From Cyanobium sp. Morenito 9A2 (GTDB taxonomy: Bacteria; Cyanobacteriota; Cyanobacteriia; PCC-6307; Cyanobiaceae), in contig NZ_JAGQBJ010000007.1 of assembly GCF_024345575.1 (NCBI RefSeq), forward strand, positions 62,001 to 126,000: 64,000 nt of DNA. The letters run 5' to 3'. Numbering within the stretch: position 1 is the stretch's first letter; each line of letters opens with the position of its first letter. The notes below the pieces were generated by a model that was given only the letters and a program-made list of their open reading frames with translations, searched no databases and had not been told where the DNA came from. The position numbers and the translations under genes were made by a program. Below are positions 38,367 to 43,584 of the stretch, piece after piece.

Positions 38367-40487
38367 ATGCCGGTCGCGGCCATGACCCAGGCAACGGGCC
38401 CTGCTGCTGAGCCCGGTGCGGTTGGCCCCAGGCGAGGAATCGCCTGGTTGCGCTTGATCCCCTGGTTGGTGCTGGCCATGGGGCTCCTGGGCACGGGGAT
38501 GATCTGCGAAAGCACTCGCCGCGTTCAGGTCCGTGAACAGGAGCGGCTCGTGCAGGGCCTGAGCAGGGACATCGCCCAGGCCCTGCAGTCAAAAGTCACC
38601 ACCAGCGTGGCCCTGCTGACGGCGGTGGCGGGACTGTTCGACGCCTCGACGGTGGTGAATCGCGAGGAATTCCACACCTTCTACGACTCACTGAAGCTGT
38701 CGGAATCCAACTTGGCGGGCCTTCAGGGGGTTGGTTTCGCCCGGGTGATCCCCGCCGGCGGAGTACCCGCCTTCGAAGCCTCGCGGCGGGCCGAGGGTTT
38801 GAGCGATTTCCGCGTCACGCCCCCTGGCCAGCGGCCCTTGATCTCGGCAGTGGACTACATCGAGCCGCTCGACGGGCCCAACCGACGCTCGCTTGGATTC
38901 GACATGTACGCCCAACCCAGCCAGCGCCTGGCCATGGACGAGGCCGCGGAGACAGGACAGGTCGTGCTCTCGGGACCTCTGGCCCTGACCCAGGAAACCA
39001 GCCGGAGCCCCCAGGTGGGGGCGTTGCTTCTGGTGCCCATCTACCGCACTCCAGAGGTCGGGGATCTGGTGGGCAAGGCCAAGGTCGGGGAACTGCTGGG
39101 CTGGGCCTTCTCCCCCTTGCGCCTGGGGGACCTGATTCGGGCGGCCCTGGCCACGGTCGACAATCCCCAGATCCAGCATGCCTGGCTGAGAATCTATGAC
39201 GGTGATCAGCCCAGGGCTGATCGGCTGGTGTTCTCCCAGGAGGGCCTGGAGAGGAACTCCAGGGCGGATTCGCCCTTCCCAAGAGGCGAGGCGGTTGAGG
39301 AGTCGATTCGCCTCCTCAACCGCAGCTGGCGCCTCCGGGTTCAGCTCGATTCGGGCAGCATCGAGGGCATGGGCCTTCGCGCCAGCCTTGGGGTGATGGC
39401 CCTCTACGGCAGCCTGATCAGCCTGTTGGCCGCCTTGATCAGCCGCAGCCTGGTGACCAGTCACCTGGCCACGGCCGAAGCCCTGGCACTGGCGCAGAAG
39501 GCGAATCAGGAACGCGCCCTGGCCAGCACGGTCTTCGAAAGCAGCCCCCTTGGCATCCTCGTCACCGATGCCGACGGCATCGTGCTGACGACCAACAAGG
39601 CCTTCACGCAGATCAGCGGCTACTCCAGGATCGAAGCCACAGGTCACAAGGCCAATCTGCTCAAGTCAGGCCTTCACGATCAGGCCTTTTACCGCGGCCT
39701 GTGGCAAAGCCTTCTCCAGCATGGGTTCTGGAAGGATGAACTCTGGAACCGCCTCCGCAACGGCAGCATCCAGCGCCATGAACTCATCATCACCGCCGTG
39801 CGCAACAGCGACCACGTGACCACCAGCTACGTGGGCATGCTCCAGGACGTGAGCGAGCGCTACCGAGAACAGCAGCTGATCCGCCACAGCGCCTTGCACG
39901 ACGACCTGACCGGACTGGCGAACCGCCCGTTGCTGATGGGTCAACTGGAACAGGCCCTGGCCCTGGCCCGGCGCCATGGCCAACGGGTGGGCCTGTTGTT
40001 CATGGACCTCGATGGCTTCAAGGCGATCAACGATCAGCTGGGCCATGACGTGGGCGACCAATTGCTGAAACGGGTGGCCGAGCGCCTCCAGGAAGGGGTG
40101 CGCGAGACGGACACCCTTTGCCGTCAGGGGGGAGATGAATTCGTGCTGCTGATTCCCCAGGCCGGCAGCTTCGAACAGCTGCTCGCGCTCGGCCAGAAAC
40201 TGATCGAGCAGGTGAGCCGCCCTTACCCCGAACTCCCGGGCACGGTGCACATCGGGATGAGCGTCGGGATCGCCCGCTGGCCGGAGAACGGCAATGACGC
40301 CGATGCACTGCTCAAGGCCGCGGACATCGCCATGTACGCCGCCAAGGAGGCGACGGGGGCGAAGGTGCGGGTGTCTCCGGTCTCAACCCCTCTCCAGCCG
40401 GCGCACGATGAAACCCATCAGCACCAACGAGCCCGCCAGGGCGATCAACAGGGTGATGGTCATCAAGGGGATCACGCGGTGGTCTGA
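38367..40487 (+). CDS. CHASE-PAS-GGDEF diguanylate cyclase
   Basis: 706 residues. A first helix (about 27-45) and a second (about 330-350) flank an extracellular CHASE-type sensor (REEFHTFYDSLKLSESNLAGLQGVG region). A PAS domain follows (about 381-500, FESSPLGILVTDADG), then a GGDEF domain with RQGGDEFVLLIP at about 585-596. The inhibitory-site pattern RETD lies just upstream (R-x-x-D), so product inhibition is likely. It makes c-di-GMP in response to an external ligand. No EAL domain follows. The last ~35 residues are low complexity and lie antisense to a possible small gene (40383-40475). Confidence 0.88.
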   Translation: MPVAAMTQATGPAAEPGAVGPRRGIAWLRLIPWLVLAMGLLGTGMICESTRRVQVREQERLVQGLSRDIAQALQSKVTTSVALLTAVAGLFDASTVVNREEFHTFYDSLKLSESNLAGLQGVGFARVIPAGGVPAFEASRRAEGLSDFRVTPPGQRPLISAVDYIEPLDGPNRRSLGFDMYAQPSQRLAMDEAAETGQVVLSGPLALTQETSRSPQVGALLLVPIYRTPEVGDLVGKAKVGELLGWAFSPLRLGDLIRAALATVDNPQIQHAWLRIYDGDQPRADRLVFSQEGLERNSRADSPFPRGEAVEESIRLLNRSWRLRVQLDSGSIEGMGLRASLGVMALYGSLISLLAALISRSLVTSHLATAEALALAQKANQERALASTVFESSPLGILVTDADGIVLTTNKAFTQISGYSRIEATGHKANLLKSGLHDQAFYRGLWQSLLQHGFWKDELWNRLRNGSIQRHELIITAVRNSDHVTTSYVGMLQDVSERYREQQLIRHSALHDDLTGLANRPLLMGQLEQALALARRHGQRVGLLFMDLDGFKAINDQLGHDVGDQLLKRVAERLQEGVRETDTLCRQGGDEFVLLIPQAGSFEQLLALGQKLIEQVSRPYPELPGTVHIGMSVGIARWPENGNDADALLKAADIAMYAAKEATGAKVRVSPVSTPLQPAHDETHQHQRARQGDQQGDGHQGDHAVV
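40383..40475 (-). CDS. Candidate 30-residue membrane peptide antisense to the diguanylate cyclase end
   Basis: On the minus strand a GTG or ATG (40475 or 40463) opens a peptide with a single, well-formed hydrophobic helix (MTITLLIALAGSLVLMGFIV) and a basic end (RRLERG). It would overlap the low-complexity tail of the diguanylate cyclase. Size and shape resemble small photosynthetic or NDH membrane subunits, but I recognise no family; chance is possible in GC-rich DNA. Confidence 0.3.
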   Translation of the reverse strand: MIPLMTITLLIALAGSLVLMGFIVRRLERG

Positions 40488-40527: not shown

Positions 40528-40839
40528 ATGGCTCAACTCCCCCGCCGTTGCGACCTGCATCGCCCACACCCCGGCCCCTGGGGTGGCCTGGGTCCCTGGG
40601 GGTCCACGGCCCTGATTGTGCTGCTGGTGCTGCTCCCTGCCGTCGCCCGCGCCGATGCCAACCTGCCCACCTGCCTGCGCTGGCGCAGCAGCAGCGGTCT
40701 GGAGCACATCCAGCTGGGCAACCGCCTCGGCGCGGCCAACCTGCTCACCAAAAACCAGAAGCTGGATCCCGGCGCCCCCGACGGCAGCCGGCCCCTCTAC
40801 CGCGACTCCGACATCGCCCGGCTCTGCCGCAGCTACTGA
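40528..40839 (+). CDS. Small secreted protein
   Basis: 103 residues with a signal peptide ending near VARADANLP and a mature part of about 60 residues (LPTCLRWRSSSGLEHIQLGNRLGAANLLTKN region). No family is recognised. Two cysteines in the mature part could form a disulfide. Its end overlaps the convergent polyferredoxin gene by 7 bases. Confidence 0.6.
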   Translation: MAQLPRRCDLHRPHPGPWGGLGPWGSTALIVLLVLLPAVARADANLPTCLRWRSSSGLEHIQLGNRLGAANLLTKNQKLDPGAPDGSRPLYRDSDIARLCRSY

Positions 40840-42944
40840 GCCACCAGCCAACGGCCCGAGGCCCCCAGCAGCAGCGCCGCCGCCGAGCCCCACCAGAAGG
40901 CCCGGGCCACCGGCATCAACAAGCGCCGCAGCAGCACCACCGAGCCCAGCACCCCGCTGAGCAGGGCCACGGACTGGCAGAAGCCGATCACGTGGGGATC
41001 GGCGCTCCAGGCGGGAAGCTGGCCCGCCCAATCCCCCAGGGGCGCGAATGTCACGGGCAACAGCTGACCGGCTTCGGCCATCCCCAGGGGCAGAAAGCGG
41101 GCCAGCATCAACCCCCAGAGCAGGGGCAACAGGCCGTAGAGGGCCAGCTTCCGCCGCTCCCAGGGCACGAGCGGCGCCAGCAGCAGCTGCAGCAGGGCCG
41201 GCAGCGCCAGGGCAAGGGCGGCGAAGGCCAGCCGCGGCAGCCAGGGGCCGGTCTGCAGGCTTTCCGGCGCCAGGGGCAGCCAGCCCAGCAGCCGATGCCA
41301 ATGGTGCAGGCAGACCCCGCCCGCCAGCACCAGAATCAGGCCCGGCTCCCCAGCCGGGGGCGCCATCTCCCTGTGCAGGTCGGCGGCGGGGGGCCGCAGG
41401 CTCAGTTGCACGGAGCGGTGCGGGCAGGCCTGGGCGCAGGTGAGGCAGAGCACGCAGTTGCGGTTGTCGGCCAGGTGGGCCGGGTGGGTGCCCAGCGGGC
41501 AACCGGTCGTGGCGAGGCCCTCGCCGTCGGCGGGCCCGCCCTTGAAGCAGGCGTAGGTGCTGCAGCTGCCGCTGCAGGTGCCCACCTGGGCGCGCAACTC
41601 CAGGATCGAGAGCTTGGCGAACAGCCCGTTCATGCCCCCCACCGGGCAGAGGTAGCGGCACCAGAAACGCTTCTCGAAGCTCAGCGAACCCACCACCGCC
41701 CCGGCGGTGATCAGCAGCAGCAGGGTGCTGCTGGCCCAGGCGGTGTTGGCCAGATCACCCAGCTCCTCCCAGAGCAGGATCGCGGCGAACAGGGCCGCCA
41801 GCACGGGTGAGGCCCAGGCATCGCTGTTGCCCCGGGGCCAGCGGGCCGGTTCCCAGCCCAGAAGGCGTGCCAGCCGCTGCACGATCTCCCCCCAGACCAT
41901 GAACGGGCAAAAGGAGCACCAGAGCCGCCCCACGAGCGGGTAGGCCAGCAGGATCAGCGGCCACCACCAGGCCCAGAACAGATTGAGCCCACCGTTGTGG
42001 GCGCGGTCCTGGGGGCCGAGCCAGAGCCAGAGGTTCACGAGCACGAACACCCAGCTGACAACGCCGAACAGCAGCGCTTTCCAGAGCCGGGGCGAACGCA
42101 TCCACTCCCGCAGCGCTGGCTTCCAGCGCCAGAGATCGAAGCGCAACCGCGGGCTGCGGCCGGCGGTCCAGAAGACATCTTCAGGCAGCACGGCGGGACG
42201 GGCGGCCTGGGCCTGGCGCAGGGCCCGATCCAGCACGATCTCCAACTCGCGCAGGTTGTTGGGAAAGTCGTAGCTCTGCAGCCGCTTGATCACCGCCTCC
42301 GGCACCAGCGGCGGCTGGCTCCAGCCGAGCACCCGGCTGCGCTGACGGATCCCGTAGCGCAGCCATTCGCCCAGGTCCTGGCGGCGCACGCGCAGGGGCG
42401 GCACCCGGATCAGGGTGCAGACCCGATCAAAGGCCGGCATCGCCGCCTCGGTGGTGAAGAAGACCCGGCCCCTGAACAGCCGCCCGCTGGACCCCTCCCC
42501 CGGCGCCCGCCACCGGCCCGAGCGGGCCAGCTCCAGCAGCGCCGGCAACAGGGCGGGGTCCACCCGATCGAGCTTGTCGATCAGCAGGGCGCCGGCCCCG
42601 AGGCTCATCAGCAGCGAACCCTCGCCATCGCTGCTGGCGCTGCCGAACAGCTCCACGCCATCGCCCCGCAGCAGGCCACCATCGAGGCGCACCATCAGCT
42701 GCTTGCGGGCGGCGGAGCCGAAGTGGATCAGCGCCGCCAGGTTGTCTTTTTCCAGGCCCGGTTCCCCGGAGAGCAGCACGGCGCGGGCGGTGGGATCGCT
42801 GGCTGCCTGGCGCAGGGTGTCCCGCAGGGCCAGCGCGTAGCGGCTGCTGCCCACCACCCCCCGACGGGTGCGCCCCACAAGGTAGGGGGCCAGGCGCAGG
42901 AAGGGTTCACTCGCCCCGGTGGCGGTCAGCGTGTCATCCGTCAC
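40833..42944 (-). CDS. Fusion of degenerate sigma-54-type AAA+ domain with membrane polyferredoxin
   Basis: 703 residues from the GTG at 42944 (GGGGAG six bases ahead). Residues about 24-250 follow the NtrC-type AAA+ layout (VVGSSRYALALRD, IRVPPLRVRRQDL, SYDFPNNLRELE). The P-loop is GEPGLEK (60-66) instead of GxxxxGK[ST], Walker B reads LLIDKLD with no catalytic glutamate, and there is no GAFTGA loop or HTH. The rest (about 285-700) is an NapH/NosR-like membrane module with CSFCP, CRYLCP, CSGSCSTYAC and CVLCLTCAQACP cysteine clusters. It may be a redox sensor or electron-transfer protein; its AAA+ part is probably inactive. Confidence 0.85.
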   Translation of the reverse strand: MTDDTLTATGASEPFLRLAPYLVGRTRRGVVGSSRYALALRDTLRQAASDPTARAVLLSGEPGLEKDNLAALIHFGSAARKQLMVRLDGGLLRGDGVELFGSASSDGEGSLLMSLGAGALLIDKLDRVDPALLPALLELARSGRWRAPGEGSSGRLFRGRVFFTTEAAMPAFDRVCTLIRVPPLRVRRQDLGEWLRYGIRQRSRVLGWSQPPLVPEAVIKRLQSYDFPNNLRELEIVLDRALRQAQAARPAVLPEDVFWTAGRSPRLRFDLWRWKPALREWMRSPRLWKALLFGVVSWVFVLVNLWLWLGPQDRAHNGGLNLFWAWWWPLILLAYPLVGRLWCSFCPFMVWGEIVQRLARLLGWEPARWPRGNSDAWASPVLAALFAAILLWEELGDLANTAWASSTLLLLITAGAVVGSLSFEKRFWCRYLCPVGGMNGLFAKLSILELRAQVGTCSGSCSTYACFKGGPADGEGLATTGCPLGTHPAHLADNRNCVLCLTCAQACPHRSVQLSLRPPAADLHREMAPPAGEPGLILVLAGGVCLHHWHRLLGWLPLAPESLQTGPWLPRLAFAALALALPALLQLLLAPLVPWERRKLALYGLLPLLWGLMLARFLPLGMAEAGQLLPVTFAPLGDWAGQLPAWSADPHVIGFCQSVALLSGVLGSVVLLRRLLMPVARAFWWGSAAALLLGASGRWLVAQ

Positions 42945-43005: not shown

Positions 43006-43584
43006 ATGAGCCTCACCCTCTACGGCGGTGCCCGTTCGCGGGCCACGATGGTCGCCTGGTACCTGGAAGAGAAGGGCCTCCCCTACCACTGGCAGCAGCT
43101 GGACATGGCGGCCGGCGAACACCGCCAGGAACCGTTCTTGAGCCTCAACCCCTTCGGCAAGGTGCCCGTGCTGGTCGATGACGCCGCCGTTGGAGTAGGT
43201 GGCGGACGGCTGCAGCTGTTCGAGAGCGGCGCGATCCTGCTCTACCTGGGGGACCGCTACGGCCACGAATTCGCCAACCCCGAGCAGCGGGCCCTGGCGG
43301 AGCAGTGGGTGCTGTTCGCCAACGCCACGCTGTCCACGGCCCTGTTCGTGGCCAGCAACCGGGACGACGAGTTCCCTCGGCTGATGGTGGTGCTCGATCG
43401 GCTGCTGGCGGCGGGCTCCCCCTTGGTCGGAGGAGCCTGGGGCGTCGCCGATTGCGCCGTGGAAGCGCACCTGGCCTATCTGCCGGTGTTTTTCCCGCAA
43501 CTCGACCTGAGCCCCTACCCGCACGTGGCGGACCGCATCGCCACCACCCGGGAGCGACCGGCCTACCTCAAGGTGATGACGTGA
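43006..43584 (+). CDS. Glutathione S-transferase family protein
   Basis: 192 residues. The thioredoxin-like N-domain (LTLYGGARSRATMVAWYLEEKGLPY, then NPFGKVPVLVDD and LFESGAILLYL) is followed by a helical C-domain (EQWVLFANATLSTALF, PLVGGAWGVADCAVEAHLAYL). Such proteins conjugate glutathione or reduce peroxides; the substrate cannot be read. The GTG of the next gene overlaps its stop (GTGA). Confidence 0.85.
   Translation: MSLTLYGGARSRATMVAWYLEEKGLPYHWQQLDMAAGEHRQEPFLSLNPFGKVPVLVDDAAVGVGGGRLQLFESGAILLYLGDRYGHEFANPEQRALAEQWVLFANATLSTALFVASNRDDEFPRLMVVLDRLLAAGSPLVGGAWGVADCAVEAHLAYLPVFFPQLDLSPYPHVADRIATTRERPAYLKVMT

Follow-up and report, generated by a model that had tools for sequence, protein, structure and literature searches.

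How does a phylum without sigma-54 come to keep, under selection, the ATPase domain of a transcription activator that depends on it, fused to an iron-sulfur membrane protein, and what might such a fusion do? The question is raised by a gene in the window analysed here, a stretch of 64,000 nucleotides from Cyanobium sp. Morenito 9A2 (contig NZ_JAGQBJ010000007.1). The initial annotation of this locus stated that cyanobacteria lack sigma-54, and both lines of evidence available to us agree. Sigma-54 (PF04552) was found in none of 15 cyanobacterial genomes, the window's own included, with four of 14 controls positive, E. coli among these; and Francke 2011 reports sigma-54 and its activators as absent from all 29 cyanobacteria surveyed (PMC3162934).

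Domain layout and the altered AAA+ head

Positions 40833-42944 of the minus strand form one uninterrupted frame of 703 codons plus a stop, with a Shine-Dalgarno-like GGGGAG directly upstream of the GTG at 42944. The protein begins with a sigma-54-activator-type (bEBP-type) AAA+ domain without an HTH; after it come about nine helices in the membrane together with a NapH-like polyferredoxin. Its features are as follows.

40833..42944, minus strand: whole coding sequence, 703 aa, GTG start (alternative GTG upstream at 43016)
42405..42860, minus strand: degenerate bEBP-type AAA+ core, residues 29-180 (Pfam, PDB sequence search, Foldseek)
42741..42767, minus strand: altered Walker A, GEPGLEKDN, residues 60-68 (sequence alignment)
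42567..42593, minus strand: altered Walker B, GALLIDKLD, catalytic Glu absent, residues 118-126 (alignment)
42180..42404, minus strand: AAA lid (AAA_lid_14; FPNNLRE), residues 181-255 (Pfam, alignment)
41676..42074, minus strand: transmembrane helices 1-4, residues 291-423 (hydropathy, structure model)
41907-41918, minus strand: first motif, CxxCP, C343-C346, in the helix 1-4 region
41646..41660, minus strand: second motif, CxxxCP, C429-C433 (alignment)
41424..41576, minus strand: ferredoxin segment with eight conserved Cys (457, 461, 466, 482, 497, 500, 503, 507) (Pfam, alignment)
40845..41363, minus strand: C-terminal membrane helices 5-9, residues 528-700 (hydropathy, model)

That the head is an NtrC-type AAA+ domain, as first proposed, is borne out by several methods. 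Residues 29-255 match sigma-54-activator AAA+ domains; Pfam places AAA_lid_14 (2.8e-5) and Sigma54_activat (0.0023) just below cut-off; the best match in a phmmer search of the PDB is a NifA (7.8e-9), and that of the window model in Foldseek is NtrX (1e-8). Relative L048 aligns to solved bEBPs with a VIA-align Z of up to 21.6 over 227 residues. The structure alignments took in 50 of the 80 named-genome loci (28 untried, two with frame problems). A bEBP-type AAA+ fold is present, according to Foldseek of the window model and to the sequence and fold of L048; the Foldseek and VIA-align lists are filled by AAA and CNB domains, and so bear on the fold of the head and not on the membrane part. No HTH family was matched by Pfam in the window protein, in 50 named relatives or in ten further frames, in line with the original description.

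With GEPGLEKDN for Walker A and LLIDKLD for Walker B, the window protein departs from what bEBPs require for ATP hydrolysis. The Walker B Glu, rightly reported as missing, is absent from all 131 sequences labelled on our tree; most orthologues there have NN at this site, and the 13 aligned Cyanobiaceae have Asp plus a non-acidic residue (10) or SG (3). The GAFTGA sigma-54 contact loop is absent from the window protein, in agreement with the initial annotation, and the loop that normally holds it counts 20 residues in this protein and 18 in L048 versus 26 in PspF. The distance from ELFG to Walker B is 8-20 residues in all 125 aligned sequences versus a counted 26 in PspF. Aligned with PspF, L048 lacks eight residues at one site and about eleven at another, which we take to be the sites of GAFTGA and of the first arginine finger, respectively.

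The description of the P-loop as broken was too strong. The break amounts to one Gly-to-Glu change, PspF and FleQ reading GERGTGKE/GESGTGKE, and the Walker A Lys is present in all 125 aligned sequences (121 orthologues and four sister-clade copies, frames shorter than 600 aa being excluded). Of the 121 orthologues, 87 have Glu directly before this Lys, 29 have Gly there and five some other residue; in the Cyanobiaceae GEPGLEKDN is identical, Glu included, in 13 of 13. Gly and Glu alternate on the tree, for example with GLGKD[IT] nested within GLEKDN, which argues for a relaxed site instead of a single loss. The tree was built with FastTree from the membrane part alone, and its root is uncertain, with the Deinococcus outgroup on a long branch; L015-L018 and L082 were omitted, being fragmentary or already represented by wider loci, as was L165 (a fragment). 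Judged by its sequence, the P-loop of the window protein is only mildly altered.

The junction of the AAA+ part to a NapH-like polyferredoxin with cysteine motifs also stands. Fer4_5 exceeds the Pfam cut-off (1.2e-9), and the best NCBIfam match is NapH/MauN (TIGR02163; 6.9e-12), at 45.4 bits far below its cut-off of 213.05. The CxxCP/CxxxCP motifs at membrane helices and eight ferredoxin-type Cys characteristic of membrane polyferredoxins in the broad sense are present, and these 12 cysteines are kept in 99-100% of the 125 aligned sequences. Hydropathy and flanking charges suggest about nine helices, with the N-terminus inside and the cysteine motifs and ferredoxin segment cytoplasmic; the eight Cys of this segment would be expected to hold two [4Fe-4S] clusters. 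Confidence in the structure models (pTM 0.57 and 0.48) is low for the ferredoxin segment and for overall placement.

Distribution, selection and the CNB domain

The initial annotation called a redox-sensing or electron-delivery protein on an inactive AAA+ scaffold unusual. The fusion is common: the family matched in 229 of 339 genomes of the class, about two thirds, when searched with a sister protein at 1e-30. With the window protein as query, matches were obtained in 16 of 40 relatives and in 121 of 292 genomes of the phylum at E 1e-3, those outside the class being mostly short, weak and confined to the ferredoxin part. From the named genomes scanned, the best 80 of 546 confirmed candidates were retained, all of them cyanobacterial to judge by title or genus. 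Four matches in viruses are all short and cover the ferredoxin part alone.

Among 111 Cyanobiaceae genomes, 54 carry the gene: 49 as one frame, three split in two and two with an internal stop. No carrier in this set is smaller than 2.1 Mb; the search of 40 relatives includes a carrier of 1.9 Mb that is 85% complete. Since the other 57 genomes lack the gene and presumably belong to photosynthetic strains as well, photosynthesis does not depend on it. Split copies (L157/L018, G286, G329 and G371, with L019 a duplicate of L018) consist of two frames each, L157 and G329 breaking near the start of the membrane part, and represent either draft errors or real separation.

In seven close pairs, one of them saturated at silent sites, dN/dS is 0.04-0.20 for the AAA part, 0.02-0.07 for the ferredoxin part and 0.06-0.24 for the C-terminal helices. 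The AAA+ part is under purifying selection, as would be expected of the docking or regulatory scaffold originally suggested. The low AAA values and the single frame in 49 of 54 carriers together show that the fusion is not a product of chance or of a frameshift.

That the head is a decaying passenger without a role, the polyferredoxin alone mattering, we consider very improbable. Some Cyanobiaceae do have forms of 658-664 aa in which more of the core, the ELFG segment, is lost, and divergence is greater in the AAA part than in the ferredoxin part. However, in three Cyanobiaceae pairs the dN/dS of the AAA part, 0.12-0.20, is comparable to the 0.18-0.24 of the C-terminal helices, and GEPGLEKDN is invariant in the 13 Cyanobiaceae aligned. 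Extra core loss despite purifying selection points to a head that is constrained, but not as an enzyme.

Sigma54_activat, AAA_lid_14 and Fer4_5 match in the window protein and all 50 named relatives (51 of 51, by Pfam). The two-part plan first described holds for the window protein, but most relatives scanned add a third, CNB-like domain: cNMP_binding matches at the N-terminus of all 50 named relatives and not in the window protein, nor in nine further Cyanobiaceae frames, L004 and L005 with their long upstream frames included. The window's family has dropped this domain (10 of 10 frames scanned). One orthologue outside the Cyanobiaceae, L014, likewise lacks it; there may thus have been more than one loss. 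The Glu and Arg of the phosphate-binding cassette, which we take to be the hallmark cNMP residues of CNB domains, occur at the aligned columns in none of 106 orthologues and none of 35 sister-clade sequences, as located by alignment to 5j3u, the Arg column being less sure in the sister clade because of a longer loop. Sensing of cAMP was rejected on these grounds, the window protein having no CNB domain at all.

Gene neighbourhoods and homologues outside cyanobacteria

The neighbours of the orthologues are scattered, with 76 upstream genes falling into 51 clusters and 78 downstream genes into 50. The best candidates for an operon partner, a gene that we label LtrA-like and one other, reach 9 of 78 each and were rejected. 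Metal genes are not conserved beside the cyanobacterial members. The lack of a conserved operon fits a stand-alone protein, and the proposed search for partners by co-occurrence yielded none for the window's clade. The [NiFe] hydrogenase was rejected as a partner in Cyanobiaceae. Of 44 genomes with the hydrogenase, 38 carry the gene, and 16 of 54 gene carriers lack the hydrogenase, a loose association in which genome size is a confounder. NifJ is above cut-off in 42 of the 111 Cyanobiaceae genomes.

In the window, the plus-strand gene at 38367-40487 converges on the gene studied here; it encodes a sensor of 706 aa in which PAS and GGDEF-like parts are recognisable by eye. A GGDEF gene (by eye) also adjoins it in L132 and L136; none is present in L131 of the same genus or in the other Cyanobiaceae loci shown. 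Sensing of c-di-GMP as in FleQ was set aside, since this neighbour is not conserved and the Arg-Asn after the P-loop, presumably two of the FleQ contact residues, is missing in the window protein. In four loci of one Cyanobiaceae genus (L135, L140, L141, L143), the gene is flanked on the same strand by an SDR-like gene on one side and a Fur-like regulator with an MBL-fold-like gene on the other (by eye).

A sister clade has the plan CNB-AAA-polyferredoxin, with an intact GxGKT P-loop in 40 of 41 frames read. L201 was not entered in this count, L158 and L161 gave no frame, and L157 gave just a 421-aa frame without the AAA part; L158 shows GxGKT on the tree. The sister form often shares a genome with an orthologue of the window protein, and its mean identity to the Cyanobiaceae clade is 51% over the membrane and ferredoxin part (L159 and the outgroup excluded). 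Among 42 sister loci (44 minus L201, on the same plasmid as L151, and L161, orthologue-like by identity), 28 have the cysteine synthase gene cysK downstream in the same orientation, with gene centres no more than 3 kb apart; the spacing makes it the adjacent gene in most of these. One more locus has it 8.7 kb upstream, and 13, some on short contigs, lack it. Near the 44 sister genes entered, psbA occurs in 8, petC in 11 and a rhodanese-like gene in 15, with DUF3365, DUF4079, DUF2892 and nitronate monooxygenase recurring. The same panel gave cysK in two and psbA or petC in none of 80 orthologue loci, which have a larger median size, and none of the three at 12 Cyanobiaceae loci. Several sister loci come from related genomes, so these counts are not independent. 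Two sister copies are plasmid-borne, in Pseudanabaena and Aulosira.

The cysK adjacency and the psbA and petC copies in some loci tie the family to sulfur and to photosynthetic redox, and the cysteine synthase link is a first functional handle. These loci are perhaps a module for adaptation to sulfide or low oxygen. A sentinel-type D1 in the island was rejected, as the psbA of L155, the sole copy checked, has those Mn ligands that were inspected.

Six of 17 non-cyanobacterial plasmid matches were viewed, one of them, in Sinorhizobium, at an unannotated locus. On a Deinococcus plasmid the membrane part is free-standing, with 452 residues and no head, and the C-terminal membrane stretch of the window protein resembles that of this homologue by eye; a His-rich hypothetical gene (L153, 6925-7851) precedes and overlaps its start. 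Partial homologues lie beside iron transporter, cupredoxin and FTR1 genes in Rhizobium and beside a metal transporter, P-type ATPases and a metal-dependent regulator in Natronorubrum. The association with metal transport is less clear in Natrinema, where nickel-transport genes are on the opposite strand, and in Halocatena, where an arsenite exporter is about 3 kb away. The headless Deinococcus form and the partial homologues in Natronorubrum and Rhizobium suggest that the head is an added module; most likely it was joined to an older membrane polyferredoxin.

Candidate functions and known systems

We tend to read the window protein as a conduit for electrons in the membrane, with a pseudo-ATPase as its regulatory head. 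It would sit in the inner or thylakoid membrane as a polyferredoxin, N-terminus inside and iron-sulfur clusters at the cytoplasmic face, passing electrons between a soluble low-potential donor (at a guess ferredoxin or similar) and an acceptor in or across the membrane, perhaps the quinone pool or a metal or thiol outside. The head would be a sigma-54-activator AAA+ domain stripped of its contact loop, Walker B Glu and most of the arginine-finger segment, and after these losses ring-wise ATP hydrolysis is not expected of it. The Lys, lid and fold that remain point to continued binding of a ligand or partner, by which the head would gate or dock the redox part. Most of the scanned relatives have a CNB-type domain on top of this head; the window's family has dropped it. 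If the head does gate electron flow, the protein would connect AAA+ signalling with redox chemistry in the membrane in an unusual way, testable in model cyanobacteria. The observation made in the initial annotation is confirmed, and its interpretation as a whole is partly supported. Of the counter-evidence that it named, an intact P-loop in relatives was found in the sister clade and in part in 29 of 121 orthologues, but Pfam matched no HTH in any relative scanned.

Among the alternatives, a metal-redox protein like CcoG or FtrD, which act in copper or iron reduction or uptake, with a head tuned to metal status, is unlikely, even with the metal genes near the Rhizobium, Natronorubrum, Natrinema and Halocatena homologues and the His-rich gene before the Deinococcus copy; those neighbourhoods come from the few plasmid matches viewed, and cyanobacterial members have no conserved metal-gene neighbours. 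Less probable again is a redox sensor in the membrane that, like TyrR or HupR, acts on RNA polymerase to control transcription in the absence of sigma-54. The AAA+ fold is kept (Foldseek, VIA-align), and sigma-70-dependent bEBP homologues with altered GAFTGA exist (PMC3162934), but the lid runs into membrane helices, no HTH was matched by Pfam in the window protein or scanned relatives, and there is no conserved target operon. We give still less weight to a live nucleotide switch, in which the AAA+ head would bind or hydrolyse ATP and thereby drive or gate electron transfer. The invariant Lys, GxGK in 29 of 121 orthologues and GxGKT in 40 of 41 sister frames speak for it; yet the Walker B Glu is in 0 of 131 sequences, some eleven residues of the arginine-finger segment are lost in L048, and Glu stands beside the Lys in every aligned member of the Cyanobiaceae.

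An extension of our preferred reading, in which a sigma-54-activator domain gates a membrane electron wire in cyanobacteria without sigma-54, is quite doubtful, falling between the metal-redox and transcription-sensor readings. The sister form would be a redox valve gated by nucleotide, operating under sulfide or low oxygen together with cysteine synthase and, in certain strains, alternative D1 and Rieske subunits; the window form would be a housekeeping version with a ligand- or partner-sensing pseudo-ATPase head, possibly a missing regulated route from ferredoxin to the quinone pool.

No study of the protein was found in the open-licence literature, which was the literature covered, and the text of PMC5061849 also gave no match. 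One paper includes slr0593 of Synechocystis in an expression table under the printed name 'cAMP binding membrane protein': 3 h and 12 h into iron starvation its mRNA is lower by about 2.5-fold, with recovery by 48 h (PMC3516471), a response that we count in favour of the conduit reading. The name fits the CNB-AAA-polyferredoxin plan, a comparison by name and not by sequence, and the window protein differs in having no CNB domain. We assume that slr0593 is the orthologue of the window gene; as CNB domains of this family lack the cNMP-holding Glu and Arg, the name may mislead.

With NapH/MauN the window protein shares CxxxCP-type motifs on membrane helices as well as a [4Fe-4S] ferredoxin segment, and differs in its extra C-terminal helices and large cytoplasmic regulatory head; NosR, CcoG/FixG and FtrD are presumably relatives of this membrane part. 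With the bEBPs PspF, NtrX, FleQ and VpsR it has the AAA+ core and lid fold in common, but it has no GAFTGA, Walker B Glu or HTH and resides in a cell without sigma-54, and in relative L048 the arginine-finger segment is shortened. The sister clade follows the same AAA-polyferredoxin plan, with an intact P-loop and recurrent downstream cysK, and the database names of its members each reflect a single part of the protein ('cyclic nucleotide-binding domain-containing protein' in one case, 'nitrogen assimilation regulatory protein' in another). The window protein is a NapH-like membrane polyferredoxin with an unusual head, of a kind already on record under such one-part names.
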